This document shows positions 2,275-20,533 of a stretch of 21,449 bases of DNA, piece after piece. The notes under the pieces are model-generated. The model was given only the letters and a program-made list of their open reading frames with translations, was not told where the DNA came from and ran no database searches. The DNA lies in the IMG/VR virus record IMGVR_UViG_3300037493_004310, positions 1-21,449 of that record. One strand, given 5' to 3'. Each line of letters opens with the position of its first letter. Position 1 is the stretch's first letter. The stretch is from a virus. The position numbers were made by a program, and so were the translations under genes.

Positions 2275-3009
2275 TTAGCGGTGCAGGTTGCCGTTTTCGT
2301 CAAAGTGATATTCGTTTGCGATGGCGTTCTCCATGACCGATTCCTCGCTACGCAGGTACTCATACTCGTCTCTGAGGTCGCGGTAGATGGCGTGACAGAG
2401 ATTCATTCGCAGACGCTCCACAGCATAATTCAATTTATTTTGCAAATTCATCCAATTGATCTCACATCCGATCTCTGCGGCATCCTTCAGTTCCTCAAGG
2501 ATATCAGACTCGGTGTTCATCAATTCCACGCATGTCTCGACTTGGTGAGAGTTCGACTTCCGTACAAGCCAGACCCCCATGTTGCCTTCTTTCGCGATAC
2601 GAAGAAGGGGAGATAGCGACGAGGACACCTCGATTCCGCCGATCTTATAGACGATCCACGGCTGAAACAGTTCCTTGCCATTTTCTCCCACGGCGATGCT
2701 AGTGCTTGGTTTGGGAGGGGCGACGAGGAAGTCGATCAGCTCGTTTTCGCGGATGAAACGAGAGGTGAAGGATACACCGTCGTCCTTACAGTCGAATCCC
2801 GTGTAGCGGATATCTGCGTCAGGCATCCCGATTGATGAGAGAGCATCCTTCCAAATGTTGATGACAGGATCGCACCAATCGCTGTGGTCAGTCGATGCAT
2901 CAGCAATGGCGCTAAATGCCTTTCCGTATGCACTTGGATTAATTTCACCGCTCTCTGCGGCTTCCTTCATCTCAGAAAGTGTACGTAGGATGGTTGCGAT
3001 CTTCTTCAT
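2275..3009 (-). CDS. Hypothetical phage protein with C-terminal helical module
   Basis: 244 aa. The start ATG at 3009 overlaps the preceding gene's TGA (ATGA), so translation is coupled. The C-terminal stretch, about residues 190-244, contains a long helix then DEYEYLRSEESVMENAIANEYHFDENGN. An EYEYL-S-E-...-ANEY-F-G arrangement recurs at the end of many uncharacterised phage proteins in my memory, so I read this as a conserved module of unknown role. The first 40 residues are also helical. No catalytic residues are evident. Confidence 0.8.
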   Translation of the reverse strand: MKKIATILRTLSEMKEAAESGEINPSAYGKAFSAIADASTDHSDWCDPVINIWKDALSSIGMPDADIRYTGFDCKDDGVSFTSRFIRENELIDFLVAPPKPSTSIAVGENGKELFQPWIVYKIGGIEVSSSLSPLLRIAKEGNMGVWLVRKSNSHQVETCVELMNTESDILEELKDAAEIGCEINWMNLQNKLNYAVERLRMNLCHAIYRDLRDEYEYLRSEESVMENAIANEYHFDENGNLHR

Positions 3010-3509
3010 ACTGGTGTTGCTCGCCGGGACGATGCAGCAAGCATCAGTTCCATGAGAGGGTCATTGCACATCAGCCAAGGATAGGTCATGTTCCTAAAGA
3101 ATAGCCTGTTATAAAGTTCTATGCCACCTTGTATCTGAAGATGCGACAACTTGGACGAGAAAATGATGGACGCACCAAGGTGCTGCTTTGCAGCGCACAT
3201 TGCCGCGATAATCCTTTCGCTGTAATCGCAATGGTGGCTAGAGTTAACGAAGCAGCAGAAGGAACTACCTTCTTCCGTAGGGAAGCAACACACATCATCT
3301 GTTCCCCATCTGCTACTTCTGGCAATGCGGTCGATTTGAAACAGACCATCCCCTTCAATGAAGCGAATCCTGCCGTGAGAATAGGAGAACGTCATGGGAA
3401 TCCCATTCGTCAATCCGCTCCTCCAGATCGACCCTATGTCCATGTACACAAGTTCAAATGCATCTGCATCGAACTCTGCATCTCGCACCCATGAAGTTTG
3501 GTATGCCAT
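3006..3509 (-). CDS. Hypothetical protein (167 aa)
   Basis: Starts at 3509 after a 13-bp element and an AGGG site; first protein gene downstream of tRNA-Gly. It ends with a 4-bp ATGA overlap on the next gene. Here the 13-bp element is coding in the SSRR frame near the C-terminus, unlike the VPA frame in uvsE. The protein is rich in Cys and aromatic residues (DDVCCFPTEEGSSFCCFVNSSHHCDY) but has no regular zinc-finger spacing. Family unknown. Confidence 0.75.
   Translation of the reverse strand: MAYQTSWVRDAEFDADAFELVYMDIGSIWRSGLTNGIPMTFSYSHGRIRFIEGDGLFQIDRIARSSRWGTDDVCCFPTEEGSSFCCFVNSSHHCDYSERIIAAMCAAKQHLGASIIFSSKLSHLQIQGGIELYNRLFFRNMTYPWLMCNDPLMELMLAASSRRATPV
3023..3035 (-). promoter_or_regulatory. 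13-bp element, copy 5
   Basis: GCATCGTCCCGGC, within the final codons (SSRR frame) of the 3006 gene. Confidence 0.9.
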
Positions 3510-3543: not shown

Positions 3544-3614
3544 AGCGGGTAAGGGGATTCGAACCCCTGAGAAAAGTTTGGAAAACTCTTATGTTGCCAC
3601 TACATCATACCCAC
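3544..3614 (-). tRNA. tRNA-Gly (anticodon TCC)
   Basis: A full cloverleaf can be drawn: acceptor GTGGGTA/TACCCGC (one G-U), D stem ATGT/ACAT, anticodon stem AGAGT/ACTTT around loop TTTCCAA (TCC), T stem AGGGG/CCCCT around TTCGAAT. The discriminator is T and no CCA is encoded. It reads GGA codons. It lies between the small membrane-protein gene and the 3509-3006 gene and shares their transcript; a 15-bp hairpin 7 bases upstream may help processing. Confidence 0.95.
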
Positions 3615-3946: not shown

Positions 3947-3952
3947 AATCTC

Positions 3953-3984
3953 ATTGTAGTAGGCTGTTATCACTTTAACGATTT
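3953..3984 (-). promoter_or_regulatory. Promoter, ACTACAAT class
   Basis: ACTACAAT at 3960-3953 on the minus strand, with -10 hexamer TACAAT. The -35 is poor. It lies between convergent-free minus genes, after the 3970 stop, and should transcribe the membrane protein gene, tRNA-Gly and genes to the left. Confidence 0.6.
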
Positions 3985-4383
3985 CTTTGCCGTCTTGGAG
4001 AGAAGTTCCATCGGATCACCCATGTTCTTTGCTTCCTCGCGGAGCAGAAGTTCGATCTTCGGTGCGTTATGAGACATCTCTTCAGTCACGACTAGGAAAG
4101 CAGCCTTCATCTCGCGGGTGGTGAAAGCCATAGGCTTCAGCATCCACCTTGACTTGATTGTAACCTTACCCTTGCTGCTGCGCGTCCACACTACCGTGAT
4201 CGTTCCGAACACCGAACCCTGTCGAATGTAGGCTTTGAACCAAACATTGGTGGATGATGTTGACTTATATGTGTTCGTTGGGTCATGGTAGGAAGAGTCG
4301 ATGCGCCATGCGGGGAAGTCCACTCTAGCCTTCTGGCGAATGGCATCTTCGATCATCTGGACGGTTTCGGATATTGGTTCCAT
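3970..4383 (-). CDS. Hypothetical protein (137 aa)
   Basis: Start chosen at 4383, where a 13-bp element and a purine-rich AAAAGAG precede ATG; the longer frame runs back into the upstream gene and is rejected. Begins MEPISETVQMIEDAIRQKARVDFPAWRID, a helix then strands (NVWFKAYIRQGSVFGTITVVWTRSSKGKVTIKSRWML) and a C-terminal helix rich in Lys. The strand-rich basic centre could bind nucleic acid, but that is only inference. Last gene before the 3953 promoter. Confidence 0.75.
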   Translation of the reverse strand: MEPISETVQMIEDAIRQKARVDFPAWRIDSSYHDPTNTYKSTSSTNVWFKAYIRQGSVFGTITVVWTRSSKGKVTIKSRWMLKPMAFTTREMKAAFLVVTEEMSHNAPKIELLLREEAKNMGDPMELLSKTAKKSLK

Positions 4384-4408: not shown

Positions 4409-4720
4409 TCATTCCATGTAGCCATACTCGCGCATGGTCTGGACTGTTTCTGTCCCGATTTTTTCCTGCACCATTCCTGCATTGGAAAGAGTGAGCAGAC
4501 TGAACTTGCCGTACATCCCGTGATCGCGAAGAGCTTGATGCCAACCGAATGCTTCCCCATTGGGATCGACTTCGATTACATACCACTTCTGATGCCTGTC
4601 ATGCGGATTCGAGATCTTGGATATGATCCTAGCCTTATCTCCGTGACCTTCGGTTTCACCTATTCGCGGTGCGTTATCTGGTACAACAAATCTACCAAAA
4701 TGCATTGAATTATCGCTCAT
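4409..4720 (-). CDS. Hypothetical protein (103 aa)
   Basis: Begins MSDNSMHFGRFVV. The ATG at 4720 sits inside the last codons of the preceding gene, an 11-bp overlap, and this is one of the junctions with no 13-bp element, which fits coupled translation with no intergenic space. Contains RHQKWYVIEVDPNGEAFGW, a two-strand pattern, and a helical C-terminus. An alternative start four codons upstream (4732) is possible. Family unknown. Confidence 0.75.
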   Translation of the reverse strand: MSDNSMHFGRFVVPDNAPRIGETEGHGDKARIISKISNPHDRHQKWYVIEVDPNGEAFGWHQALRDHGMYGKFSLLTLSNAGMVQEKIGTETVQTMREYGYME

Positions 4721-5252
4721 GAACAGTCTCAATAGGGGTAAGCATTCTTGCCCATCCGTCGAACTCGGAATCCCTTGGAGTATCCGTGCAGATCATCCAT
4801 ACGGGATCTCCCTCTAGGTCTTGCTCTCGCAGAGACTTCACGAATGTCAGGGAACGATAGCCAAAGTTGAAATGTATAGAAACAGTACGCGCCCCCATGC
4901 GCGAATGGTATCCATCATCCTTGTTCCAATCAACATTGTTGAAGTTGGAAATAACGCAATCAATTGCCTTTGTCTCGTCGCGAAGTGCGTTCTTGGCATT
5001 TGCAGACACGGCAAGGGCTTCCTCACCTCGGTAGCCTACCAACGACCCCTCTGGGTAGACGAAGATGACATGACTAATCGTATCCCGCGCCCCAACAAGA
5101 TATCGGGCTTGACCAACCTCAATCAGAAACAGGGAAACCGAAGTTCCCATCATGTCTTGATCGTCCAATGACTTTGCGTCTTGGACAACTGACGAAAGCC
5201 ATTGCCCAAGCGAACGGAAAGCCGAATCCTTCAGCGTCGTGATAGTCAGCAT
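4710..5252 (-). CDS. Hypothetical protein (180 aa)
   Basis: 180 aa, starting 13 bases after the 13-bp element (GCACTGTCCCGGC) with AAGGA immediately following, a textbook example of the element feeding into a Shine-Dalgarno site. Mixed alpha/beta with strands SVSLFLIEVGQARYLVG and HVIFVYPEGSLVGYRG; no motif recognised. Downstream of clpS in the same transcript. Confidence 0.8.
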   Translation of the reverse strand: MLTITTLKDSAFRSLGQWLSSVVQDAKSLDDQDMMGTSVSLFLIEVGQARYLVGARDTISHVIFVYPEGSLVGYRGEEALAVSANAKNALRDETKAIDCVISNFNNVDWNKDDGYHSRMGARTVSIHFNFGYRSLTFVKSLREQDLEGDPVWMICTDTPRDSEFDGWARMLTPIETVHER

Positions 5253-5280: not shown

Positions 5281-5568
5281 TTACGGTGCTTGAACGATGG
5301 TGGCAGTCAGTCGCTTTGACTGTAACTGGTCACGTTTGAACTCTGCGTGTTCCTTGAGACAAGTCGCAACTACGCTCATCCCTTTCGTGTGAACCTCAAG
5401 CGTCTTGTCCATTGCGGACATAGGCTCTAATCTCGTCACGGTGATGAGCGTCTGAATGACATACTCAAAACTGTTCGTATTGTCATTGTGCAGAACCACG
5501 TTCCACATGGTTGGCGGCTTCGGTTCTGGTTTCATCGGTTTGATGGTTGTGTTCTGTTCTGTTTTCAT
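5281..5568 (-). CDS. clpS: ClpS, ATP-dependent Clp protease adaptor
   Basis: 95 aa, close to normal ClpS length. ClpS docks on the N-domain of ClpA (or ClpC) and delivers N-degron substrates while blocking others. After a disordered Pro/Lys-rich N-terminal extension (1-20) comes WNVVLHNDNTNSFEYVI and later EVHTKGMSVVATCLKEHAEFKRDQL. The residues that read the substrate N-terminus align: N28, D29 and H60 keep the exact 32-residue spacing of E. coli N34, D35 and H66, and F34 replaces the E. coli M40 gatekeeper. An AGAGGAAA site precedes the ATG. It is first protein gene after tRNA-Arg and has no 13-bp element; it is presumably read from the strong 5680 promoter. Probably redirects host proteolysis. 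Confidence 0.93.
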   Translation of the reverse strand: MKTEQNTTIKPMKPEPKPPTMWNVVLHNDNTNSFEYVIQTLITVTRLEPMSAMDKTLEVHTKGMSVVATCLKEHAEFKRDQLQSKRLTATIVQAP

Positions 5569-5748: not shown

Positions 5749-6192
5749 TTATTGCCGCATCTTCCTGCTTGTGACCACCATTCGGAGCGCGGCAATAGGA
5801 TCGCCACTAAGAAGAGCGAATGCGTCAAGCCCGTGACTTCGGATAGCCTCCATACAGGGATCGAACGCGAACGAAGAGATGTGACCGTAACTCTTCGGAG
5901 AAACCAACACAGTTTCATGTATCGTCGATTCCTCTTCCTTCATAAAATTGGTGAACCATCCCTTTGCGGAATACTCCACCAACATATCGCCCATGACCTT
6001 GCTGATTCGCAGAATGAGGCGAACGCTTTGCACCTCGCGCTGACCAAAGCGCGGGTTAATCATCAGCCACATTTTGAAGGACGGATCACCATTGATATTG
6101 TCCTTGAACTGCTTGCGGATGTTTCTGCGAAGTGCATTCACCTTCTTGGGATCTTTTGAGATATCGAGGATGTAATGCTTGTTCATCTTCAT
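5749..6192 (-). CDS. Hypothetical protein (147 aa)
   Basis: Starts at 6192 with GAGGA seven bases upstream; the 13-bp element immediately precedes that site. A second ATG two codons in is possible. The N-terminus is highly basic (DPKKVNALRRNIRKQFKDN); a central SVRLILRISKVMGDMLVEYSAKGWF region is followed by a Cys- and Met-containing C-terminus. No family recognised. It follows the Ser-Val tRNA group on one transcript. Confidence 0.75.
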   Translation of the reverse strand: MKMNKHYILDISKDPKKVNALRRNIRKQFKDNINGDPSFKMWLMINPRFGQREVQSVRLILRISKVMGDMLVEYSAKGWFTNFMKEEESTIHETVLVSPKSYGHISSFAFDPCMEAIRSHGLDAFALLSGDPIAALRMVVTSRKMRQ

Positions 6193-6485: not shown

Positions 6486-6594
6486 AGTAATACAGTTTCC
6501 AGAACCAAGAGGGCTGTGCCCATTGAGGCACGGTGGAAATCCACCATGACATGATTCGTTCAAGAGAGGGGAGCCAGCTTGGTACGGTCTGCAT
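6463..6594 (-). CDS. Putative Trp-rich micro-protein (43 aa)
   Basis: A short frame beginning MQTVPSWLPSLER and containing six tryptophans in 43 residues, with a hydrophobic aromatic C-terminus (SWFWKLYYFLLDRMG), which suggests membrane association. It starts 12 bases after a 13-bp element, the spacing seen for established genes, but the Shine-Dalgarno site is weak, and the frame ends exactly at the tRNA-Ser promoter. Too short for certainty; its position rather than its sequence is the argument. Confidence 0.45.
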   Translation of the reverse strand: MQTVPSWLPSLERIMSWWISTVPQWAQPSWFWKLYYFLLDRMG

Positions 6595-6619: not shown

Positions 6620-7300
6620 TCATGGAGCATTGTCTGTAGTCTGGTCTGTAATATCGTCTGGATACTCGTCGCTGTACGCTCCAGAGTTACATTCATCCTC
6701 ATCGTCTTCGTGGAACTCGTATTCGCCCTCTTCGGATTGGAGGGTGAGAAGATCAACGGTCAGGCTGCCATTATAGATGGATCCGCTACCTGCACCGCTG
6801 TCGTTGTTCATAATCCAGAAGATGCCGTCCTCTCCGATTCTCGCCGCAGAGCAAGCCTCGCACCAAGCATTCCATGCCCCCGCCTTTAGGCTAGGATCGG
6901 CGCAGTCGAACTCACAGTCTTGCTCAAGGTCGATCTCGTCCGTACCTCCTATGTAGACGTATCGGACGGAGAGGATCCCCTGTGCGAGTGCGAGCACCGC
7001 CGCAGTAGCCATCTGCATCCCCGTATCCGATACTGTATCGCCCGCAAGTGAACATAATCGTCTGCGCTGCACAAATTCATTGATGGCATCCTCTGATTCA
7101 AGGGTGCTGCGAACATCGGCAGGAACAGAATCAGCCATTCCATGCAGGATGAGCTGGCGAAGAAAATCGTCCTTATCCTTCGCCGCTTCCGTAAACATGG
7201 TGTCGGATGAAAACTGACTATCCAGAGTCTGACCAAGTTCTGCGCGGAAGGCGTAGTCATTGATCTTGTCGAGCCAATAGTGATGGATGGTGATGCTCAT
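6620..7300 (-). CDS. Hypothetical acidic protein (226 aa)
   Basis: Starts at 7300 after a 13-bp element and AAGGA. The N-terminal two thirds is helical (FLRQLILHGMADSVPADVRSTLESEDAINEFVQRRRLCSLAG), with Cys residues at CEFDCADP and WCEACSAA, and the C-terminus is strongly acidic (EEGEYEFHEDDEDE). Such a tail suggests DNA mimicry or partner binding, which is inference. Its stop region forms a 10-bp inverted repeat with the next 13-bp element. Confidence 0.8.
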   Translation of the reverse strand: MSITIHHYWLDKINDYAFRAELGQTLDSQFSSDTMFTEAAKDKDDFLRQLILHGMADSVPADVRSTLESEDAINEFVQRRRLCSLAGDTVSDTGMQMATAAVLALAQGILSVRYVYIGGTDEIDLEQDCEFDCADPSLKAGAWNAWCEACSAARIGEDGIFWIMNNDSGAGSGSIYNGSLTVDLLTLQSEEGEYEFHEDDEDECNSGAYSDEYPDDITDQTTDNAP

Positions 7301-7326: not shown

Positions 7327-7563
7327 TCAGGGACGGTCGGTTCCGATGTCTGCGGGAAGAACCCCGTCATATACATCGAAGGGCAGATCATTCGATTCAG
7401 TACGCTCGTTCGGCAGAGGGTGCTTCATTCTCTCGCGCATAAGCGCACGCAGCGTTTCCTGTAGTGATCTGATCTCTGCGGCGGCTTCGGTGAGCCAGAT
7501 TTTCGAGACAGGATCTTCGGAGAGTTGTGCAAGGGTGAGGAGATTGGAAGAGTGTTTATCCAT
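7327..7563 (-). CDS. Small helical protein (78 aa)
   Basis: MDKHSSNLLTLAQLSEDPVSKIWLTEAAAEIRSLQETLRALMRERM is one long predicted helix with coiled-coil character; the rest is extended. The ATG overlaps the previous gene's TAA (TAATG). Upstream GAAGAA serves as a weak ribosome site inside the upstream gene's last codons. Family unknown. Confidence 0.75.
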   Translation of the reverse strand: MDKHSSNLLTLAQLSEDPVSKIWLTEAAAEIRSLQETLRALMRERMKHPLPNERTESNDLPFDVYDGVLPADIGTDRP

Positions 7564-7862: not shown

Positions 7863-7864
7863 AA

Positions 7865-7937
7865 TGCCCCGAGAGAGACTTGCACTCTCCTAACACGGAT
7901 TAAAAGTCCGTTGCTAAACTACCTCAGCTATCGGGGC
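7865..7937 (-). tRNA. tRNA-Lys (anticodon TTT)
   Basis: Acceptor GCCCCGA/TCGGGGC, anticodon stem ACGGA/TCCGT around CTTTTAA (TTT), T stem GAGAG/CTCTC around the less common TGCAAGT loop. Discriminator A, no CCA. 73 nt. Read from the 7969 promoter, 31 bases upstream. Confidence 0.95.
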
Positions 7938-7968
7938 TTGATGAGCACGCTACAAGCACGTGAACGCT

Positions 7969-7997
7969 ATTGTAGTAAGAGCCGGGACGATGCGCTA
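7969..7997 (-). promoter_or_regulatory. Promoter for tRNA-Lys operon with embedded 13-bp element
   Basis: -35-like TAGCGC (7997-7992), 17-bp spacer, -10 TACAAT (7974-7969) within ACTACAAT. The 13-bp element (7981-7993) occupies the spacer and touches the -35, where a bound protein would block RNA polymerase. Confidence 0.65.
7981..7993 (-). promoter_or_regulatory. 13-bp element, copy 13
   Basis: GCATCGTCCCGGC inside the tRNA-Lys promoter spacer; no protein start follows directly. Confidence 0.9.
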
Positions 7998-7998
7998 C

Positions 7999-8760
7999 CT
8001 ATCGCCCAAGATTAATTCCCGCTGCCAGATCGTGCTCTTCGCAGAGGTCGGTAGCGATATGGTATACATAGGACGACATATACCAATTGTTGACATTTGA
8101 AGTGTTCTTACGCAGTATAATCTGCGCATGGGAGACGACCGTGAAGAACACATCATCTCCAAAAGCGTAATCATTTTCAAGTTCCATGCCTCCGAAGCCA
8201 GATCGCTCATCCTTACGCATCAAGAAGTGAACGCTCCGCATGACATCGCTGTGGGATTGATCGTCGTACTCGTTGCGAAGCAACTGTCGGGTTTCGATCC
8301 TGTCGTACCCAACGCCAAGCATCGCAGCGCGAGTGCAGAGGACTACATCATTTATGTCCCATTGAGGATTGCTCATCTGGAACATACGAACAAGATGCGC
8401 CACCTTCTCGTCTTTGGCGAGCTCGTTGGGCATCAAGTGAATCATCAGCGGCATAGTGGCGCAGATTCGTATCCATGCATCCACAATCGAATCCCGATCC
8501 CCTTCTGAGGGAGACTCAATCGAAAGGAACTTACAGATGATGCTTAGGCATCCCACGCTGCCACCTGAGTCCTGCATTTGCTGATACAGACGACCGTACT
8601 CCATCTCCACATTATCCCCCCTGCGGGGCGACCTTCCGACGAACGGAGAGTGGGTGCATACTCCGTAGCCATCGTAGAATCCCTTCCAGTTGGGAGCACA
8701 GTAGAGGAGGTAGGGAAGGGGGAGTTCCCGAACGATTTGGGTAGTGGATTGGCGATTCAT
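7999..8760 (-). CDS. Hypothetical protein (253 aa)
   Basis: Start set at MNRQSTTQIV (8760), whose ATG overlaps the upstream stop (TAATG); the longer frame lies inside the previous gene. Mixed composition with predicted helices throughout (FLSIESPSEGDRDSIVDAWIRICATMPLMIHLMPNELAKDEKVAHLVRMF) and a hydrophobic C-terminal half (FFTVVSHAQIILRKN). No known domain recognised. Last gene before the tRNA-Lys promoter. Confidence 0.75.
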   Translation of the reverse strand: MNRQSTTQIVRELPLPYLLYCAPNWKGFYDGYGVCTHSPFVGRSPRRGDNVEMEYGRLYQQMQDSGGSVGCLSIICKFLSIESPSEGDRDSIVDAWIRICATMPLMIHLMPNELAKDEKVAHLVRMFQMSNPQWDINDVVLCTRAAMLGVGYDRIETRQLLRNEYDDQSHSDVMRSVHFLMRKDERSGFGGMELENDYAFGDDVFFTVVSHAQIILRKNTSNVNNWYMSSYVYHIATDLCEEHDLAAGINLGR

Positions 8761-9182
8761 TACTTCATAGCTCCTGCCGGGACAACGCATGCCTCGCATG
8801 GAATTGCCTCGCTGATCGGCGCAGCGGGATCGTCAGGAAGTTCCTCTGACAACTTCTTCGCTCCACGCGCCATCCATGCCTCAAGGGGCATATTCTTCAG
8901 CCAATCCTGCGGGGTCGGGATGCGTCCCATGTCTTCAAGGACGTGCTGCTCACCGATGGTGCGAACAGGTACGGTGCGTCCATCACTCTTGCGGGTCAGC
9001 ACCGTGCCGAACACTTGTTCGCACAGAAAGATACCGAAGGACGAATGAAGCAGGGCGCGGTGACGAACATCTGCGACATGGCTCTTTGTCTGGTCGAACC
9101 AATCGTGGATGTGCTGATAATCGGAGGCGGCTCCACCGAACTTCTTGGCGGATGACTTGGCGTGATAGTAGGGGTGGCTCAT
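8760..9182 (-). CDS. DUF6915-like protein (140 aa)
   Basis: The start at 9182 follows a 13-bp element and an AGGAG site. The protein opens MSHPYYHAKSSAKKFGG, then DYQHIHDWFDQTKSHVADVRHRALLHSSFGIFLCEQVFG. The HPY-HA-SS-KK-GG, then IH-WFD-SK-H-AD-RHRAL-H...GIF-CE--FG pattern is what I remember of a widespread uncharacterised family (I believe DUF6915), including many phage members. The conserved His residues could bind metal, unproven. The last codons (VVPAGAMK) are read through a 13-bp element, and the stop overlaps the next start. Confidence 0.8.
   Translation of the reverse strand: MSHPYYHAKSSAKKFGGAASDYQHIHDWFDQTKSHVADVRHRALLHSSFGIFLCEQVFGTVLTRKSDGRTVPVRTIGEQHVLEDMGRIPTPQDWLKNMPLEAWMARGAKKLSEELPDDPAAPISEAIPCEACVVPAGAMK
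8776..8788 (-). promoter_or_regulatory. 13-bp element, copy 14
   Basis: GCGTTGTCCCGGC followed by AGGAG, inside the C-terminus of the 8760 gene. Confidence 0.9.
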
Positions 9183-9207: not shown

Positions 9208-9927
9208 TCAATCGGGTTCGGGGATGTGAAGACCATTATACAGTACGCCGCTCGTTTCCTGCCATTCCTGTTTACGCACTTCCATGTTGCACTCAAGATC
9301 GAATGTGAGATCCTTCAGAAGAATCCTCACCACTCCATCGTTGTAATACGGCTCGTCGTTGCCGAATCCAGATGGCATCATGTCGTACACCCATTGGTGG
9401 GCTTCAAAGCCATTGGGGAATGGAACATCGCCATCATCTTCTGCCTCCGAAAGCAGGGCGATATTGTCAACATGACCTTCGTCGCCGCCACCGTTGAAAT
9501 CAAAGGTGACTTTCTCGTATCCTGAGCGGTACAGGAACATCGCCTGTGCGAACGCCTTGCCTGTGCGAATGACCTGCTCGGCATGATAACTCAACTGATA
9601 ATCATCTGCATTGGTGCTCTTGGCGATCTCGGACAGGCGCAGGACAGCCAAGAGTTCGTCCTTATACTTGCTAACCTCGGCAGACGGAAGGGCGTTCAGC
9701 ATCTCTGGACAGAACTGGACAAGTGTAACGCAGAGAGGCTCGTCCTTTGAAAGCACGATGTCAAGGAGTTTTTCGTGACGCTTCAGAAACCCATCCATGA
9801 CGGGAGCGTAGACCGTGGCGAAATGCTCTGCGTATCCCTCTCGCTCCTTCTTCACGGTCATAAGGATGCTGCTGATGGGATCTGCGGACTTCTTGGATTT
9901 GCTTGGCTTCTTGGTTTTAGTGGGCAT
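9208..9927 (-). CDS. Hypothetical protein (239 aa)
   Basis: Start at 9927, seven bases after AAGGAG, which itself directly follows a 13-bp element; the start overlaps the previous gene by 11 bp. The first 20 residues are a basic leader (PTKTKKPSKSKKS). Most of the rest is helical, with an acidic glycine-rich patch (FDFNGGGDEGHVDNIALLSEAEDDGD). No catalytic motif. Family unknown. Confidence 0.8.
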   Translation of the reverse strand: MPTKTKKPSKSKKSADPISSILMTVKKEREGYAEHFATVYAPVMDGFLKRHEKLLDIVLSKDEPLCVTLVQFCPEMLNALPSAEVSKYKDELLAVLRLSEIAKSTNADDYQLSYHAEQVIRTGKAFAQAMFLYRSGYEKVTFDFNGGGDEGHVDNIALLSEAEDDGDVPFPNGFEAHQWVYDMMPSGFGNDEPYYNDGVVRILLKDLTFDLECNMEVRKQEWQETSGVLYNGLHIPEPD

Positions 9928-10939
9928 ATGATTCTCCTTGCCGGGACGATGCTTCGCCCTTTGTTCCTACCCATGTGGGCTTGATCCAAACGGTTTTGAC
10001 GAGTGAGTTCCTCTCCCCGTGGTGCTGCTGTCTCATGTGACCACGCCGCAGATGGAACCGTGGGCTTGCATGGTTTCCGCTCGCTTCATCGGATGCCACA
10101 GCTCGGGCAAGTGTCATCACCTGACCTTGCCAAAGTTCTCCCTTGTTTTTCTTGGGATTCGCAGGACGCACAAGGATAGGCGCAGGGGCGTGAATGTCGC
10201 CCACCGTGTTCATGGCAATCAGTAGCTTGACCGCCATCCGGAATGCCCATTGGGTCTGCTTGGTGTCTAGATCCACGGTAGGATGATCCTTCGGATCGAC
10301 GCGGATGCCCATGCGGTCGTACACCATGTCGCTGCCGTACTTATCCATCGTGTCAGACCATGCACCCTCGCAAGGCACTCGAACCCACCCCATATCGCCC
10401 TTGGTGTCGAGCATGGTTCCCTCAAGGACTGGTCGATCCTTGAGAGTTGTGGATGCACCGTTCTCCGTTCGCGTGAATGAGTTGAATCGCATCAGCGTGA
10501 CGGCTACGGGAGCCACCGTGATGGGTTCTCCTTCCCACTCCATGTCGTAGGGCATGTACGGCGGTTCTGTGGGCAGCACGAACATGATGCATTCGGCGGG
10601 GAACTTTATCTCCGCGAAGTCAATTCCTCCCACATCGGTGCGGTCTAGTGCGTCAATCAGTTCCCTGCTCGGGAAATAAGTGGGCGCATTCAGGGTTCGC
10701 ATCATGCTCACCGCATTCGCGGCGCACACTCGAAGATCGCGCGGGTACATCCCGATGATCGGGATGATATCTGGATGGAGAGCGGTGAACGCTGTTGCCC
10801 ACCAGTATCTCGGAGCCATGTATCCCGTGGGAGGCATGATCCTGCGCGGCATGAATCCATCGAACTGCGCCTTGAGGTTTGCGCTGTCCTCGATGAATTG
10901 CGCGTTCATTCGTAGTGCTAGTGTCGAGTTGATGTCCAT
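9917..10939 (-). CDS. Conserved phage protein with C-terminal RRGH/VWI-P-WVG module
   Basis: 340 aa. The last 60 residues carry SPRFHLRRGHMRQQHHGERN... VWIKPTWVG, a short conserved tail I recall from many phage proteins of unknown function; the Arg/His cluster is suggestive of nucleic-acid or metal contact. The N-terminal 250 residues are not recognisable. Start at 10939 follows a 13-bp element and GAGGA. The C-terminus is coded through another 13-bp element in the SSRQ frame and overlaps the next gene. Confidence 0.8.
   Translation of the reverse strand: MDINSTLALRMNAQFIEDSANLKAQFDGFMPRRIMPPTGYMAPRYWWATAFTALHPDIIPIIGMYPRDLRVCAANAVSMMRTLNAPTYFPSRELIDALDRTDVGGIDFAEIKFPAECIMFVLPTEPPYMPYDMEWEGEPITVAPVAVTLMRFNSFTRTENGASTTLKDRPVLEGTMLDTKGDMGWVRVPCEGAWSDTMDKYGSDMVYDRMGIRVDPKDHPTVDLDTKQTQWAFRMAVKLLIAMNTVGDIHAPAPILVRPANPKKNKGELWQGQVMTLARAVASDEASGNHASPRFHLRRGHMRQQHHGERNSLVKTVWIKPTWVGTKGEASSRQGESYAH
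9940..9952 (-). promoter_or_regulatory. 13-bp element, copy 16
   Basis: GCATCGTCCCGGC then AAGGAG; coding (SSRQ frame) in the 9917 gene. Confidence 0.9.
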
Positions 10940-10964: not shown

Positions 10965-11311
10965 TAACTCAATTGTTCCATCAGTTCGTAAAGCCCGTGC
11001 GTGTCAAAGGAGTCGATGGAAACCTCGGTCATTCCTGTGGCTTCGATCATCTCTGCAAGCTGGGCATCCATTTGCTTCGGATCGTCGGAGCCGTCCCATT
11101 GCATCGTAATGCAAGTCATGTCGCGCCATTCGCTGTTGTCCAGATCGCGGATAAAAACCCTAACGATCTCGTCCTTGCGGAGAAGTATCAGGGCTGCCAC
11201 GGGATCCTCTTCCTTGGAGGAACAGACCAACAGTCTGAAATGGGAAGTCCCTGCGGGAACGTTGCCGCTCCCGCAGGGATTGCCACCATCACTCACGCCG
11301 CTGTCGTTCAC
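10964..11311 (-). CDS. Hypothetical protein (115 aa), GTG start
   Basis: The best start is GTG at 11311, overlapping the upstream TGA (GTGA), but no strong Shine-Dalgarno site exists and the first 20 codons are Gly/Ser/Asn-rich and span a 10-bp hairpin (11249-11278), so the true start is uncertain. From residue about 23 the protein looks normal: HFRLLVCSSKEEDPVAALILLRKDEIVRVFIRDLDN, alternating strands, then a helical C-terminus. Family unknown. Confidence 0.65.
   Translation of the reverse strand: MNDSGVSDGGNPCGSGNVPAGTSHFRLLVCSSKEEDPVAALILLRKDEIVRVFIRDLDNSEWRDMTCITMQWDGSDDPKQMDAQLAEMIEATGMTEVSIDSFDTHGLYELMEQLS
11249..11278 (-). other. 10-bp perfect hairpin near a start
   Basis: CCCTGCGGGA and its complement (11249-11258, 11269-11278) separated by 10 nt, inside the 5' coding portion of the GTG-start gene. 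It could hold translation in check or mark an attenuator; there is no T-tract. Confidence 0.6.
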
Positions 11312-11958
11312 GCCGCCACCATCGCACCAGACCAAGCGTAGTTCATGCGGCGACCCTCACCCGCGCTCTCGGCGGTGACGAAATCGCTCTTGCGAAGCGA
11401 GGACAGAGCCGTACCGATCTGACCGCCGATGCTGTCGGGAACATTGATCCCCGCAGAAGCGTAGCACTCTCGCACCAGACCCTCAATCGCATCCGTACCC
11501 ATCGGGACGGACGAGTTCTGGAGGATCTCAGACACGACTGTCTTCACTCCCTTGCCGCCGGGGCCATGCGGACGGCGACCCGCTGTGCTGAGTTCGACGC
11601 TTTCACGGGCGACCTTCTTGACAGGCTTCGCCTTCACATCCTTCTTGACGGGCTTCGCATCCTTCTTGACAGGCTTCGCAACGATCTTCTGTGCGGCAAC
11701 GGGCTTGCGCTGCGGAGCAGGAGCCTCGCCCGTATTCATCAACGATCCGATCTGCGAGGCGACATGAGCGCGGAGTGCGGTCTGACGCTGCGTATCGGAA
11801 CCTGCCAGACGGTCGAACTCAGTCGTAGCAGTCTGGAGAGTCTGAGCGAACTTCGCCATCGCCGCGAAGTAAATCGCGGGAGAGATGCGGAGCGCGTTGC
11901 AGACTGCAAGCGGGTTTGCGGACGGGGAAAGGACGCTGTTCTGTGCTTTACGTGGCAT
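11308..11958 (-). CDS. Lys-rich linker protein with C-terminal winged-helix-like domain
   Basis: 216 aa from the ATG at 11958 (AGGAG, 7 bases upstream). An N-terminal helical domain (1-75) is joined by a histone-H1-like basic linker, about 85-118 (repeats of PVKKDAK / PVKKDVK / AKPVKKVA), to a C-terminal part, about 130-216 (GVKTVVSEILQNSSVPMGTDAIEGLVRECYASAG... LSSLRKSDFVTAESAGEGRRMNYAWSG), whose helix-helix-helix then turn pattern resembles a winged helix. That suggests a DNA-binding, nucleoid-like protein. No specific family assigned. Possible candidates for the dispersed-element binder include this protein, but nothing proves it. Confidence 0.75.
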   Translation of the reverse strand: MPRKAQNSVLSPSANPLAVCNALRISPAIYFAAMAKFAQTLQTATTEFDRLAGSDTQRQTALRAHVASQIGSLMNTGEAPAPQRKPVAAQKIVAKPVKKDAKPVKKDVKAKPVKKVARESVELSTAGRRPHGPGGKGVKTVVSEILQNSSVPMGTDAIEGLVRECYASAGINVPDSIGGQIGTALSSLRKSDFVTAESAGEGRRMNYAWSGAMVAA

Positions 11959-12803: not shown

Positions 12804-12832
12804 AATTTACGCCGGGACTATGTGCCAGTCAA
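12804..12832 (-). promoter_or_regulatory. Sigma-70-like promoter with element in its spacer
   Basis: -35 TTGACT (12832-12827), 17-bp spacer, -10 TAAATT (12809-12804). A complete copy of the 13-bp element (12811-12823) fills the spacer. Should transcribe the 12720 gene and those to the left. Confidence 0.75.
12811..12823 (-). promoter_or_regulatory. 13-bp element, copy 19
   Basis: ACATAGTCCCGGC in the spacer of the 12.8-kb promoter. Confidence 0.9.
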
Positions 12833-12966: not shown

Positions 12967-14289
12967 TCAGGAAGGAACACCGATCTGAACGCACTCGCCG
13001 TATGGAGGCTTTTGTGAAGTGGTCATCACCCAAATGACATCCATGCTTGGCTGCTCCCCGAACTCGCCGTAACCGTCCGTAATGTAAACAACAACATCAA
13101 CGGAAACACGATTGTCTTCAAGGTGCGTGAACACAGGTCGGAAGTCGGTTCCACCGCCGCCCTCGTACTTCGTCGGTACGGATTCGGTAGCGTCAAGCCA
13201 TCGTCCCTGATGAACTGCGGCATCACAGTCCATCAGATAGATGGAGCATCCGAACTGCTTGCGGATCTCTTCCAACTCCGCAACCGCCTGAGCGATCTCC
13301 ATCTCGCCAATCGACCCCGAAGTGTCAACGGCGAAGCCGATGCGCGGAGTTTTGAATCCGCACGGAGATGGCAGATACATATCCTGCCAGACGAATCGAC
13401 GGTTCGGTGGGAGGAACTGGTAATCATCGCGGCGGTCGCGGGTCACGCCGAAGCGAATGTACTGGCGCAACTTCTCGCTCCAAGCGACTTTGCTGTCCAC
13501 CTTCTCCGACACCATGCGCTCTAGCCCTTCGGGCAACTCGCCCTGCTGCTTCGCGTAGGCGGCAGCACGGGCAATCGCCCTGTCCCAATCCTGCTCCTTG
13601 GTTCGCTCCTCGTCGCCGCGCTCACGCGCGATCTTCTCACCGTTGTTCGGTTCGCCGCCCTGCGGGTTGCCCTCGTCCATATCCCTGCCTGTGCCGCCGC
13701 CGCAGTTGCCGCCGCTTTTGCCGCCGCAGTTGCCGCCGCTGTTGCCGCCGCCGTTGCCGCCGTTGCCGCCGCCGTTGCGGAGCAGTTCTTCGTAGATTTG
13801 CTCCGAAGTCAGTTCGCGGTACTTCTCGTCAAGGCATCCCCCTTCGATCCACGAATCGCGTCCCATCTGATCCAAAAGAATCAGGTTCTCAGCGAAGTCG
13901 TTCGCAAAGTTCCAGATCAGGGGATCACGGTTGAGTCGGCGGTCGAAGTGACTGAAGGCGACATGACCAATCTCATGCGCGATCAGGAAGCACAGTTGCT
14001 TGTCGCTGAGTTTGTCCATGAACACTCGCCCAAGACGGATGTTGCCACATTTGTCAACGCAAGCGGTTGGAACATCGGAGATGAAGAACTTGCATCCCGC
14101 CGTGAGGAATCCCCAAAACGGCATATAACGATACAAGGTCATGCAGCATCCATCAATGCGCTTCTGGCGGTCGTTGTCATCTCCGCTCAGAATGGCTGCT
14201 CCAGAGTAGGTTGTTGCGGAAAGGGAGGAGGCAGGGGCGACCGTAGCCACCCCTGCCTTGCCGTTGGTGATGTTGGACTTCTTAGCCAT
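12967..14289 (-). CDS. VWA-domain putative metallopeptidase (DUF2201 type)
   Basis: 440 aa. The N-terminal domain has the zinc-protease signature HEIGH (105-109), then NFANDFAEN (127-135). A low-complexity Gly/Asn linker (173-200) leads to a C-terminal von Willebrand A domain with MIDAS motif D322-T-S-G-S326, T381 in GGGGTDF and D405 in ITDGYG. This domain pair matches the DUF2201 family (metallopeptidase-like N, VWA-like C). It is encoded just downstream of the MoxR-type ATPase, the common pairing in which the ATPase remodels a VWA partner or its target. Whether it cuts peptides is not known. Start at 14289 follows AAGGAGC. Confidence 0.9.
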   Translation of the reverse strand: MAKKSNITNGKAGVATVAPASSLSATTYSGAAILSGDDNDRQKRIDGCCMTLYRYMPFWGFLTAGCKFFISDVPTACVDKCGNIRLGRVFMDKLSDKQLCFLIAHEIGHVAFSHFDRRLNRDPLIWNFANDFAENLILLDQMGRDSWIEGGCLDEKYRELTSEQIYEELLRNGGGNGGNGGGNSGGNCGGKSGGNCGGGTGRDMDEGNPQGGEPNNGEKIARERGDEERTKEQDWDRAIARAAAYAKQQGELPEGLERMVSEKVDSKVAWSEKLRQYIRFGVTRDRRDDYQFLPPNRRFVWQDMYLPSPCGFKTPRIGFAVDTSGSIGEMEIAQAVAELEEIRKQFGCSIYLMDCDAAVHQGRWLDATESVPTKYEGGGGTDFRPVFTHLEDNRVSVDVVVYITDGYGEFGEQPSMDVIWVMTTSQKPPYGECVQIGVPS

Positions 14290-14319: not shown

Positions 14320-15339
14320 TCACTTGCGGATGCCGTATCGGTCGATCAGTTCGCTGTGCTGCGTGACCCACTTGTGCGCGGACTTCGCGCTGAGAACCGC
14401 CTTGCGAACATCCATGTTGCCAACCATCGAACGAACGATGAACAGGCAAGTGATTTCGGGAGGCATCGTTCCCGCGATCTCACACGCCCTGTCGGTGTTC
14501 GCGGCAATGAACTTCGCATCTCCACGGAGGAGTCGCGAGGACAAGCCCATCGCCACCGCATAGGACACGCTGACCCGCTTCGGATCGTGCGTGAACCGTT
14601 CCTTACCCGCGAGGAGCGCGTCAAGGTCTGGCATATCCTTCAGTTCGCGGCGGTAGCCATCGAACTCCGCTGCGGCTCCCTTGCCGATGATGCCCGTCAC
14701 GAACTCCATATCGTCCGTTCCAGAGCCGATCAACTGGCTCACGCGATCCCAAGCGCGGGGCGAGGCGAAGTTCTCGTACTCGTCCTTCGGATCGGTCGAG
14801 AGCAGGGCGGGACGGAAGTTCAAGAAGCCCACAACATCGTCATGGACACCCGCGCCGAACGCCCAAGTAGTCCACGACTTGACATCGGGTTCGTAATTCA
14901 CAATCGCGAATCGGTTGCGGAGGGGAGCCGACATTGGCTGCACATGGGCGCGGTGCGAGGACTTGTTTCCCGCTGCACACACATACCAACCGTCACCCAA
15001 CTTGTGGGAACCGCACTTGCGGTCGAGAATGATCTGGAGAGCGGCGTTCTGCACCGCCACCGAAGCGGTGTTCAGTTCGTCGAAGAACAGAATGCCCTCG
15101 CCGTCCTGCGGGATGAAGTCGGGTCGCGCCCAAGCGACATTTGCACCGCTCTCGCCGCGCTCGATGAGCGGCAGACCACGAAGGTCAACGGGGTCGAGCA
15201 TGGAGAGGCGCACATCAATCACGCGCTTGCCCTCCGCTGCCTGATGGACTTGCTGAGACTTGCCCACTCCGGGCGCTCCGAAGATGAAGCAGGGGATGTT
15301 GGCGCGACGATAGATCTTGATAGTGTCAACGAGATTCAT
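14320..15339 (-). CDS. MoxR-type AAA+ ATPase
   Basis: 339 aa. Walker A GAPGVGKS (21-28), Walker B ILFFDELN (83-90), sensor-1 N125 in AAGN, and arginine-finger region PLRNRF (139-144). This is the compact MoxR/RavA layout, a hexameric remodelling ATPase that normally works with a VWA protein; the next gene is one. Start at 15339 follows AGGAA, after a 60-base leader containing a 13-bp element and a GCCCC/GGGGC hairpin. Role in the phage (assembly, DNA metabolism or host remodelling) is not determined by sequence. Confidence 0.9.
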   Translation of the reverse strand: MNLVDTIKIYRRANIPCFIFGAPGVGKSQQVHQAAEGKRVIDVRLSMLDPVDLRGLPLIERGESGANVAWARPDFIPQDGEGILFFDELNTASVAVQNAALQIILDRKCGSHKLGDGWYVCAAGNKSSHRAHVQPMSAPLRNRFAIVNYEPDVKSWTTWAFGAGVHDDVVGFLNFRPALLSTDPKDEYENFASPRAWDRVSQLIGSGTDDMEFVTGIIGKGAAAEFDGYRRELKDMPDLDALLAGKERFTHDPKRVSVSYAVAMGLSSRLLRGDAKFIAANTDRACEIAGTMPPEITCLFIVRSMVGNMDVRKAVLSAKSAHKWVTQHSELIDRYGIRK

Positions 15340-15412: not shown

Positions 15413-16378
15413 TCATCGTCCCATCATCTTGATAAGTCTACGAGCAGCGATAATTCCACGGCGCTGCTTGGCTGCGGTGTTGAGAAACTCGTAGAGACAC
15501 GGAGCCTCACCGATCCAACCAACGAGCCTGTCTGGTGTTCGTTCGGTGCAATGGTTCAGTCCCTGACGAAGCCAGCCATGCACAGATGCGCTGTCCTCGC
15601 TCCAAGGACTTGCATCACGGATCAGGCAGTCATGTGTTCGTAGGCTGCGGTCTGCCTTCGTGCGCCACCTCGTACCGATATGCGGCACAACATGGTCGAT
15701 CAATGATTGACCCCTTTCGCCGCATGGATCGACATGGTATGCCATTCCGCTCAATACATCAATAGGGTTGGATTCATTGTTCATCCATGAACGAACAACC
15801 TCACCAAGGAAATCCTTGCAGTTTCCCTCTGGGATCGAACGAAGTACACAGGGAATCATCCGCCTGTCTGCAACCATGACGGCTGCAACGGAACCAATGT
15901 CGGCGCTGTACATGATGCTAATGTCCTCTTCCTTGAGGATTCGGAATGGAGATCGACCGCTGTGCATCTCAAATACCCCTCCATTGAGCATCGCCTTTGC
16001 GATCTCAGGATCACGCAGCACGGATGCGGAAATGTCACTTGAAGTGAACTTACTCTTGCTATGGGGACAACGAGCAATGAGAGCCATCGCCGCGATCACG
16101 GCATCTTTGTCGGACATCCAATTCTTCTGCCACTCGCAGCGACCAGATTCGCCACCAATGGCGAATGCAATTGCGCCGCCGAATAGTCCAGATGTGGACA
16201 GGGTGGCGATATCCTTATCCTCGATATTCACGAGGTTGGTCTTGCCGTACAGGTCTGAGTGTGAGAGCAGATAGTTCAGCAATCTCGCACCTAAACCAGA
16301 GGGAATGGATTCCCAATCCTGAGAGGAAGGAGAGTGCATCCTTGCAACGGCAATACGGAGTTCGTCTTTAGTGGTCAT
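15413..16378 (-). CDS. Hypothetical protein (321 aa), first gene of the leftward cluster
   Basis: 321 aa, start at 16378 behind AGAGGT and a variant 13-bp element. No domain recognised. Hydrophobic patch LFGGAIAFAIGG at about 64-75 and a basic C-terminal end (AKQRRGIIAARRLIKMMGR). Numerous Cys/His (CPHSK, CGERGQ, HDCLIRD, HCTERT) without regular zinc spacing. The last codons form a 9-bp inverted repeat with the adjacent 13-bp element (15402-15421). Confidence 0.8.
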   Translation of the reverse strand: MTTKDELRIAVARMHSPSSQDWESIPSGLGARLLNYLLSHSDLYGKTNLVNIEDKDIATLSTSGLFGGAIAFAIGGESGRCEWQKNWMSDKDAVIAAMALIARCPHSKSKFTSSDISASVLRDPEIAKAMLNGGVFEMHSGRSPFRILKEEDISIMYSADIGSVAAVMVADRRMIPCVLRSIPEGNCKDFLGEVVRSWMNNESNPIDVLSGMAYHVDPCGERGQSLIDHVVPHIGTRWRTKADRSLRTHDCLIRDASPWSEDSASVHGWLRQGLNHCTERTPDRLVGWIGEAPCLYEFLNTAAKQRRGIIAARRLIKMMGR

Positions 16379-16563: not shown

Positions 16564-17298
16564 ATGGCGAAGTCAAAGGGAGGACTCAATCCAGTACGCT
16601 CTGAATGGGCGAACTTTATCGTTGCGTCTGCATGGATTGATGGATACGGCACGAACGAAGTGGAACTTGTCCAAGGCCGTAACGGCGGCGGCAAGCCTGT
16701 AGCTGGAGCACTTGCGAACTGCGCGAACAAATGCATTGACTTCTCGCGACGACAATCAGGCTCGATCATGGAACTGGCGCACAGCATAGCCAGCGGCATG
16801 GCTGATGCATCGGTTAGAGAAGGATGGACAGGAGCAGGGGTGGCGTCCGCTGTAGTCAAGACGACTCATCCTCAAGTAACCATGGGCGATGCGACATGGC
16901 TCATCGAGAGCTGGGCAGCTGAGGTGGACAAAGTCGATGACCGCATCTTCAACACGCTTTCCCGTGGATGGGTCATCCATGCCGATGCACAGGAGGGAGC
17001 ATGGCTCGCCCTGAACGGGGCTTACCTCATGGAATGGGCGAAGCCGTGGAGTCTGTGGAGCGGAACCACGGGAAGGTTCTGCTGGGCGGCGCTTAGGAAG
17101 CGATGGGGCATGCCTTTGAAGGAATGGGACAGAGAGCCAGAACCTCACGGCAGAAACTTCGCACGCTTCGCATCCGCTGCCAGAGGCAGCTCTCAGCCTT
17201 GGAGCGTTCGTTGGAGTCACCAACCACCGCCACCGGATGAGCGTGATGTGAACTTCGTTCCGCATATTGCCGCTCAGCCTTCAGAGCGACCACTATAA
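16564..17298 (+). CDS. Hypothetical rightward protein (244 aa)
   Basis: Plus-strand gene from ATG 16564 (MAKSKGGLNPVRSEW), divergent from the long leftward cluster. No Shine-Dalgarno site precedes it; the bases upstream are TATACCTATAT, so a leaderless message is possible. Contents: a helical, tryptophan-rich protein (WANFIVASAWIDGYG, WLIESWAAEVD, WAKPWSLWSG) ending in a Pro/Arg-rich tail. No DNA-binding fold is obvious. Its opposite orientation next to the integrase module fits a lysogeny-related gene, which is inference only. Its stop overlaps the next promoter. Confidence 0.75.
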   Translation: MAKSKGGLNPVRSEWANFIVASAWIDGYGTNEVELVQGRNGGGKPVAGALANCANKCIDFSRRQSGSIMELAHSIASGMADASVREGWTGAGVASAVVKTTHPQVTMGDATWLIESWAAEVDKVDDRIFNTLSRGWVIHADAQEGAWLALNGAYLMEWAKPWSLWSGTTGRFCWAALRKRWGMPLKEWDREPEPHGRNFARFASAARGSSQPWSVRWSHQPPPPDERDVNFVPHIAAQPSERPL

Positions 17299-17306: not shown

Positions 17307-17612
17307 ATGAACCCTCTTGACGAAACTCAATCGGATGCCCATGCAGTTGGCGGCCATACTCTGGAAGAGACTGCATGGAACCGCTTGATCGAAACGGGAA
17401 GGGGGTTACCAGACCATGTACACGCCTCACCAGATGTTTCTGCTCTCATGGATTTCCGTCTGCTTTTCGCCCAATGGATTTCGGCATCGTCCCGGCAAGC
17501 CATTCCTATGGGTGACCGATCCAAGTTTTTGAGGGAAGTCAATGAAATCATGGAAGCCACAGTCATGGCGATTTCAATCAGATCTCATCAACTTGGTCTT
17601 CTAGACTCTTAA
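17307..17612 (+). CDS. Small rightward protein (101 aa), probably leaderless
   Basis: MNPLDETQSDAHAVGG onward, 101 aa, mostly helical with no recognised domain. Seven bases separate a TATAAT box from its ATG, as at 21105, so its message probably lacks a leader like lambda cI from PRM. A copy of the 13-bp element lies inside it in the gene's own direction, followed 13 bases later by an in-frame ATG (17510); a 34-aa internal product is conceivable. Its 3' end overlaps the convergent 17578 gene by 35 bp. Confidence 0.65.
   Translation: MNPLDETQSDAHAVGGHTLEETAWNRLIETGRGLPDHVHASPDVSALMDFRLLFAQWISASSRQAIPMGDRSKFLREVNEIMEATVMAISIRSHQLGLLDS
17484..17496 (+). promoter_or_regulatory. 13-bp element, copy 25, reversed
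   Basis: GCATCGTCCCGGC on the plus strand inside the 17307 gene, 13 bases before an in-frame ATG. Confidence 0.9.
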
Positions 17613-18026: not shown

Positions 18027-18923
18027 TTATGGGGCACTTGTAATTCCTACCTTGAGTCCATGCACGGGAGAAGGCAGCCCTGCAGAAACACTCCATGCAG
18101 TTTCCGCCAGACGTCGGTCGTATCTCAATGTAGTGGCAGGGTTCGAATGACCCATCAACCTCATCACGATGCCAATGTCCGCTCCAGATCCAAGAACTTG
18201 ACCAACAAATGTCCTGCGGAAGTCATGCGGCATCGTCCCGGCAATACCTGCTTTGCTTGACAACCCGTTCAGTACGGACCTCACGCCCGACTGACTCAGC
18301 CTGCATTGGGCGGCATCCTCGCCGCGAACGGAGCACAGCAATGGATCGCAACCATTCAGTTTGCCCCTCCGGACCAGCCACAAGTCTAATGCTTCTGCAC
18401 TCTCTGCGGGCAGCTTGAGTTCTCGGATCCTCCCCCTCTTCCCCTTCACCCGAAGGATATCGCCAGACCAGTCTTCGCAGTTCAGTCCCACGATCTCGCT
18501 TCGACGCAGTCCAGCACCCAGTAGACAGAGAAGCGATTCATTGCGGGATCCGGCAAGACCTGCGCCGCATGCTCGAGCCAAGGCCCTGATCTCGTCATCG
18601 CGGAGATGCCGGCCAGTGGGCGGAGTATCGCCGGCGGGCGTCCACTTGGGCATCGCCCTGTCCGCAGACTCTCGATCCTGGTGGCCCAGACGCCAGCACT
18701 CTCGAATCAACTCACGCCAAAAACTCAGCATCTTGGCAATCGTGCGTCGTCCGTACCTGCCAGATAGTTCGCGCACGAGTTGGCTCGAATGTGCATAGGT
18801 GATACCAGACTGCAGGTCCGCCTCCGTTATACCAACCATAGCCAAGCACTTACGTAGGCAACTTCCTGCGGTCTGCGCAGAGAGTGCACTTAATCGAGAA
18901 CAGTACGAGTCAATCGGACTCAT
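18027..18923 (-). CDS. int: Tyrosine recombinase (integrase)
   Basis: 298 aa with an N-terminal SAM-like helical DNA-binding region (about 1-85) and a catalytic domain with all expected residues: R140 (GAGLRRSE), K160/K162 (VKGKRG), H233 and R236 (MPHDFRRTF), H259 (MGHSNPATT) and Y268 (LRYDR). It integrates or excises DNA, or resolves dimers. The start overlaps the preceding gene's TGA (ATGA). The MPHDFRR stretch is coded opposite a 13-bp element (18230-18242). Slightly higher GC than the leftward cluster. Confidence 0.95.
   Translation of the reverse strand: MSPIDSYCSRLSALSAQTAGSCLRKCLAMVGITEADLQSGITYAHSSQLVRELSGRYGRRTIAKMLSFWRELIRECWRLGHQDRESADRAMPKWTPAGDTPPTGRHLRDDEIRALARACGAGLAGSRNESLLCLLGAGLRRSEIVGLNCEDWSGDILRVKGKRGRIRELKLPAESAEALDLWLVRRGKLNGCDPLLCSVRGEDAAQCRLSQSGVRSVLNGLSSKAGIAGTMPHDFRRTFVGQVLGSGADIGIVMRLMGHSNPATTLRYDRRLAETAWSVSAGLPSPVHGLKVGITSAP
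18230..18242 (+). promoter_or_regulatory. 13-bp element, copy 26, reversed, inside int
   Basis: GCATCGTCCCGGC on the plus strand, antiparallel to int, across its AGTMPH codons. Confidence 0.85.
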
Positions 18924-20504: not shown

Positions 20505-20533
20505 ATTGTAGTAGGCTCAGGACGATATCAAAA
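20505..20533 (-). promoter_or_regulatory. Promoter, ACTACAAT class
   Basis: ACTACAAT at 20512-20505. Upstream the minus strand reads ATCGTCCTGAGC, a partial copy of the 13-bp element in the spacer region, as at 7981. Confidence 0.55.

Follow-up and report, generated by a model that had tools for sequence, protein, structure and literature searches.

A short one-way repeat that recurs along a viral contig is found, at one locus, between the −35 and −10 boxes of a promoter; does it act there as an operator, and are its other copies to be read in the same way? The stretch of DNA analysed here (the window) is the complete IMG/VR record IMGVR_UViG_3300037493_004310, of 21,449 bases, probably a fragment of an uncultured phage, and its gene calls, made with a simple custom script, are approximate. 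The repeated element, GCCGGGACNATG, or GCATnGTCCCGGC when read on the minus strand, is real: with up to two mismatches it is matched 31 times, against 7.4 matches expected and a maximum of 14 in 100 shuffles, and a weight matrix recovers 24 copies on the minus strand and 2 on the plus strand with scores of at least 14 bits, the chance level in the window being about 0.3 per strand at 9 bits. The locus that raises the question comprises three features:

12804–12832, minus strand: sigma70-type promoter TTGACT-N17-TAAATT, its spacer holding the element, 13.1 bits; orthologs in the related contigs G001 and G002
12809–12823, minus strand: element copy in the promoter spacer (copy 19 of the sequence-only reading), 18.5 bits
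12776–12793, no strand assigned: leader hairpin CCCCCACGGTGGGGG, 3' of the promoter and conserved in G001 and G002

On the minus strand, the −35 box TTGACT occupies 12832–12827, the spacer 12826–12810 and the −10 box TAAATT 12809–12804. The sequence-only reading had the copy exactly fill the 17-bp spacer; it does lie in the spacer of TTGACT-N17-TAAATT, but its 12-base core (12811–12822) sits within the 17 bases without filling them. The promoter scores 13.1 bits, where the 99th percentile of stretches drawn at random from the window is 9.8, with weights set to approximate E. coli values. A plain consensus scan rates it 9 out of 12, and finds 11 promoters in the window against 13.5 expected from shuffles; because this is no excess, the window alone would not prove the promoter. 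The case is nevertheless strong, because both G001 (TTGACT-N17-TAATCT) and G002 (TTGACA-N17-CATGAT) have an orthologous promoter, followed by the leader hairpin and the gene seen in the window, and in all three phages the 17-bp spacer holds that phage's own, different element. A conserved spacer site with a different element in each phage is as expected of an operator that co-evolves with its binder.

The other promoter overlaps proposed from the sequence fared less well. Copy 13 had been said to fill the spacer of a tRNA-Lys promoter (7969–7997), where the −10 box TACAAT is good and the −35 box TAGCGC poor, the whole scoring 4.5 bits, below the 5.6 that mark the 90th percentile of the background; the tRNA-Lys promoter of G002 is without the element. 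For copy 24 (16527), supposed to overlap a rightward −35, the best rightward promoter reaches 4.1 bits, which is background, and both overlaps were rejected on these scores. The site at 20505 does resemble a promoter (10.7 bits, with a spacer of 15 bp), but the degenerate copy claimed for it scores −11.3 bits and was discarded. A strong promoter overlap occurs once per phage, in three phages, and the statement that the element lies inside promoter spacers is firm for 1 of the 26 copies. As for the operator reading built on it, the spacer copy conserved at an orthologous promoter, with differing elements, speaks for it in three phages, whereas most of the sites originally cited give no support. 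Operators in promoters are also too narrow a description, because the other 25 copies lie outside well-supported spacers, most of them intergenic and many a fixed number of nucleotides away from a start codon. A mixed reading, of an operator together with stoperator-like sites, fits the sequence better and is partly supported. Two observations concern the surroundings of the tRNA genes: the 76-bp tRNA-Lys stretch (7863–7938) is identical in G001, where it is outside the element field, and the minus-strand ACTACAAT, a −10-like box, recurs at 3952, 5680, 6455, 7970, 20509, 20726 and 21112, near tRNA genes and elsewhere.

The remaining copies in the window are as follows:

368–382, minus strand: upstream of the incomplete leftmost gene of the window, 22.2 bits
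1291–1305, minus strand: upstream of uvdE (345–1280), 18.7 bits
1604–1618, minus strand: element copy, 24.4 bits
2247–2261, minus strand: 12 nt from the ATG of 1682–2236, 24.4 bits
3021–3035, minus strand: upstream of 2275–3009, 23.1 bits
3520–3534, minus strand: between tRNA-Gly (3544–3614) and gene 3006–3509, 21.0 bits
4394–4408, minus strand: 12 nt from the ATG of 3970–4383, 20.8 bits
5263–5277, minus strand: 12 nt from the ATG of 4710–5252, 22.6 bits
6203–6217, minus strand: 12 nt from the ATG of 5749–6192, 23.5 bits
6605–6619, minus strand: 12 nt from the ATG of a small gene near 6594, 21.7 bits
7311–7325, minus strand: 12 nt from the ATG of 6620–7300, 23.8 bits
7577–7591, minus strand: upstream of 7327–7563, 16.8 bits
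7979–7993, minus strand: upstream of tRNA-Lys (copy 13), promoter −35 unsupported, 19.5 bits
8774–8788, minus strand: upstream of 7999–8763, 21.7 bits
9193–9207, minus strand: 12 nt from the ATG of the DUF6915 gene (8760–9182), 24.3 bits
9938–9952, minus strand: 12 nt from the ATG of 9208–9927, inside the 3' end of 9917–10939, 25.0 bits
10950–10964, minus strand: 12 nt from the ATG of 9917–10939, 23.5 bits
12072–12086, minus strand: in the leader of 11308–11958, 23.8 bits
12939–12953, minus strand: directly past the stop of the vWA gene, 18.8 bits
14300–14314, minus strand: 12 nt from the ATG of the vWA gene (12967–14289), 23.5 bits
15398–15412, minus strand: 60 nt ahead of the gene for the MoxR-like ATPase (14320–15339), 24.3 bits
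16389–16403, minus strand: 12 nt from the ATG of 15413–16378, 20.1 bits
16525–16539, minus strand: opens the element field, with the early genes on one side and the divergent Fic-fold gene on the other, 23.1 bits
17484–17498, plus strand: inside gene Y, 25.0 bits; G001 has its own element at the aligned codons
18230–18244, plus strand: inside the integrase gene (antisense), 25.0 bits; no G001 counterpart found

Among the genes of the window are those of a phage-borne ClpS adaptor (5281–5568) and of a UvdE endonuclease (345–1280).

Related contigs were found by searches with the MoxR-like ATPase and the DUF6915 protein, IMG/VR contigs being chosen for encoding relatives of those two proteins; they are fragments, and the phage group is not defined as a taxonomy. 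Terminase (phrog_2) and portal (PF04860) were not found in six of the records. The closest relatives each carry a recurrent one-way element, mostly of another sequence than that of the window: GGCGTCAAAAC in G001 (58 copies), GGCGTCGTCCCA in G002 (28), ACCGGCGCGCAG in G003 and G004 (14 and 15), the 33-bp CCCGAAnCCCGAAAACtGGAnCGgGGTTAGGGC in G005 (38), CTCGTTTTCCCCC in G006 (39) and CTTTTTCCCCC in the G014 contig, whereas two close neighbours, L001 and L002, have the window's element in common. By the same repeat-finding method, more distant relatives showed no element of this kind, and other k-mer repeats in L069, L077, L088, L097 and L101 were set aside as tandem or coding repeats. A separate repeat, TATAGAATGTTA, with an AT-rich flank, lies upstream of genes and tRNAs in L103 and looks like a different kind of phage promoter. 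Two related viral contigs carry tmRNA genes (L046:13085–13426, tag ANESLMLQAA; L054:11329–11683, tag ANESLMAVAA), and a protein of the element-bearing L046 (18073–18456) matches Pfam Phage_L5_gp82 (5.9e-34).

The positions of the elements are kept where their sequences are not. The G001 element is found no more than 15 nt from the expected spot for 19 of 23 window copies (1.3 expected, P about 2e-20), and that of G002 for 14 of 18 (0.9 expected), the offsets depending on how the core is defined. Element sequence does not track relatedness, since the window and G001 differ in it at 89% MoxR and 76% Fic-like identity, and G003 and L110 share one at 66% and 46%. The consensuses of G001 (GCGTC-AAAACCG), G002 (GCGTC-GTCCCAG) and the window (GCATn-GTCCCGGC) appear to be mixtures of two half-sites, as two-part recognition would allow. 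Integron-like cassette boundaries were rejected by inference, gene order being conserved across the window, G001 and G002.

A second regularity is the distance to the start codon. In the window the core ends exactly 12 nt before an ATG in 12 of 23 copies, and one nucleotide off that distance in one more; the corresponding spacing is 15 nt in G001 (41/58) and 14 nt in G002 (12/21). AGG follows the element directly in all three, and the window has a separate AGGA past the core. In G005 most copies are away from an ATG, many lying 40–50 nt upstream and separated from it by a stretch that resembles a hairpin, and the full 33 bp are intact whether or not an ATG follows. Copies are overwhelmingly co-directional, by 58 to 1 in G001 (plus one weak extra), 28 to 1 in G002, 38 to 0 in G005 and 39 to 2 in G006, with fewer than one expected per strand. 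The direction of the element follows that of the gene, because a minus-strand gene of G003 carries it reversed, at the usual distance; at tRNA genes it mostly stands after the gene, not before it. Folding of the RNA around the copies gave a mean z of about 0 or positive in the window, G001, G002, G003 and G006 and a weak −1.4 in G005, and an RNA hairpin or terminator was rejected as the nature of the element; zero reverse copies in G005 at 9 bits argue against an antisense RNA.

Where the field of elements begins, the window holds three further features:

16564–17298, plus strand: divergent border gene, 244-aa protein with a predicted degenerate Fic fold (structure model and comparison)
17307–17612, plus strand: gene Y, 101 aa, adjoining the Fic-fold gene; ortholog in G001
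18027–18923, minus strand: tyrosine integrase (PF00589, 6.7e-20)

Gene Y has a perfect copy of the window's element at codons ASSRQ, and its G001 ortholog has the G001 element at the aligned codons KASKL. No gene starts at this site, which follows the Fic-fold gene and points in the same direction as that gene. In L5-clade phages, stoperators occur in genes downstream of the repressor gene, with one site upstream of the repressor (PMC6550527), and the layout at gene Y matches theirs, an analogy that is suggestive only. The integrase is near the border gene in the window and in G001, and the region resembles a lysogeny module; as an integrase was found in only these 2 of 11 records, several of the 11 being fragments, control by a lysogenic repressor may be limited to some of the phages.

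In each of the distinct phages with a contig that reaches the border (the window, G001, G003, G005, G006, G014 and L110/G017), the element field starts beside a divergently transcribed gene of one family, and in G003 and L110 the first element, as read from the sequence, overlaps the N-terminal codons of that gene. The border protein has no Pfam or PHROG match. An AlphaFold model built from five sequences (pLDDT 74) gave 25 top Foldseek hits that are all Fic (best E 0.048) and, in VIA, Z up to 15.0 with an rmsd of 3.9 over 203 residues, compared with a Z of 4.2 for the highest-scoring row that is neither Fic nor AvrB, so that a Fic fold is predicted over most of the protein. Unlike Fic-domain proteins, which it resembles in predicted fold, it has a degenerate HxFx[D/E]GNGRxxR motif, reading [KCS]P[WYF]..., with the active-site His missing in all seven homologs and the first Arg also replaced. 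No DNA-binding domain was seen in the predicted fold, and no relatives of the Fic-like protein were found in the genome collection or in annotated phages. A role as the sole specificity factor is weakened by its identity, which does not follow the element. That the Fic-fold protein or its partner Y recognises the element as part of an immunity switch, a toxin-like fold turned into a component of a genome-wide repressor, is in our view quite improbable; if true, it would mean that the specificity of a Fic-fold repressor system switches between close relatives. For G003 and L110 there is another candidate binder, a 229-aa protein (L046:15343–16032) encoded beside the G003 Fic-fold gene and kept in L110 at 59%, whose C-terminal HTH_23 match (E 0.044) is below the cut-off. 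No L5-type repressor, a monomer with HTH and stoperator domains, was recognised among the scanned proteins of these fragmentary contigs.

All together, we think it probable, if with some reserve, that the elements are DNA sites of a phage-encoded transcription regulator, comprising one operator and many stoperator-like sites. The site in the 12804–12832 spacer would be the operator, where a bound protein would keep the host RNA polymerase off the −35 and −10 boxes; the sites at gene junctions would act in one direction, stalling polymerase that reads on across the early genes during the silent state of the phage; and the binder, presumably encoded in the integrase/Fic-like region, would change together with the element, leaving each phage lineage with its own tag at the same places. 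Several points count against this regulator: the spacing to the ATG is more exact than binding to DNA would call for, and suits a role in translation start; strong promoter overlaps are limited to one in each of three phages; an integrase was seen in only two of the records; and the best-placed candidate for the binder, the Fic-fold protein, diverges out of step with the element.

The exact spacing is what control of translation explains best. The element would then be read in the mRNA beside the Shine-Dalgarno sequence, with a phage factor promoting or blocking initiation, as proposed for the cluster K SAS; the AGG directly past it in three contigs, the presence of about one copy per gene and the tRNA genes that are mostly followed rather than preceded by it agree with this. 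We nonetheless consider it unlikely, given a conserved promoter-spacer copy where no gene starts, the conserved copy in the middle of gene Y, and the many G005 copies 40–50 nt from an ATG, whose 33 bp are kept with or without one. It is fairly unlikely, too, that the core is a phage-specific promoter, serving a phage polymerase or a phage factor that redirects the host enzyme, so that almost all early genes would have a start of their own. One-way copies at a fixed distance upstream of genes, a turnover between relatives of the kind seen in phage promoters and a field confined to one part of the contigs would all suit such a promoter, yet copies lie within coding sequence and right after stop codons, the tRNA units have sigma70-like promoters without the element, and it would be strange for such a core to overlap an intact sigma70 promoter; a search for a single-subunit RNA polymerase (PF00940) gave no match, in a weak search whose controls were silent as well. 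A neutral or structural repeat, for instance a signal for recombination, packaging or partition that spread with no bearing on expression, could alone explain many near-identical copies in one phage, but is highly improbable in view of orthologous copies replaced in concert, a direction tied to the gene on both strands and the exact spacing to the ATG.

The regulator sites that we favour resemble the cluster K SAS in appearance, but in their presumed action they have their closest parallel in the operators and stoperators of L5 and other cluster A mycobacteriophages (PMC9283540, PMC6550527), which are likewise short, asymmetric, oriented with transcription and mostly intergenic; the window element is such an asymmetric, transcription-oriented site in many copies. 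L5-type sites number 20–30 per cluster A genome, and the elements here 14–58 per contig. Further likenesses are a sequence that differs between relatives and the presence of copies within genes, which in the L5 clade are those that follow the repressor gene. L5-type sites include at least one in an early host-type promoter, and here one copy lies in promoter sequence, at 12804–12832 and in its orthologs, that may be active early. The many copies at an exact start-codon distance, and differences between close relatives that are more abrupt than those of L5-clade motifs, set the elements here apart; no overall relation of these phages to cluster A was seen. The cluster K SAS, a 13-bp repeat at non-structural genes, and the ESAS, which hold sigma70-like promoters (PMC3203893, PMC11373665), are similar in being asymmetric one-way repeats upstream of start codons, beside the Shine-Dalgarno sequence. 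The SAS, however, is common in sequence to the cluster K subclusters (consensus GGGATAGGAGCCC, against GCATnGTCCCGGC in the window), contains the Shine-Dalgarno sequence and lies about 3–9 nt from the start codon, whereas the element here precedes the Shine-Dalgarno sequence, with a window core that ends 12 nt before the ATG, turns over between close relatives and is also present mid-gene and in a promoter spacer. The 21–22-bp direct repeats of the T1-like phages TLS and Stevie (PMC11447400, PMC4319613) and the 26-bp repeat of Mordin (PMC4611695), whose function is given as unknown in these reports, are also one-way, placed before starts and mostly intergenic; they belong to different phages and have different sequences, with 8–21 copies per genome and, in TLS, a distance of about 76 nt from the start codon against 12–21 nt here.

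One-way repeats at gene starts are therefore already known from cluster A (stoperators), cluster K (SAS), T1-like phages and Mordin, and for the T1-like repeats and the SAS their role has been stated as an open question. New are the same sites with different sequences in close relatives, together with the conserved promoter-spacer site, the mid-gene site and the Fic-fold border gene. As positions are kept and sequences change in concert, position becomes separable from sequence, and the relatives provide matched pairs for direct tests. The arrangement read from these contigs, with a one-way tag at the majority of early genes and a tag sequence peculiar to each phage, suggests a genome-wide switch under the phage's own control. 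If this is true, stoperator-like silencing would extend beyond the mycobacteriophages, where it was shown, and its specificity could switch between phages whose neighbouring proteins are nearly 90% identical.
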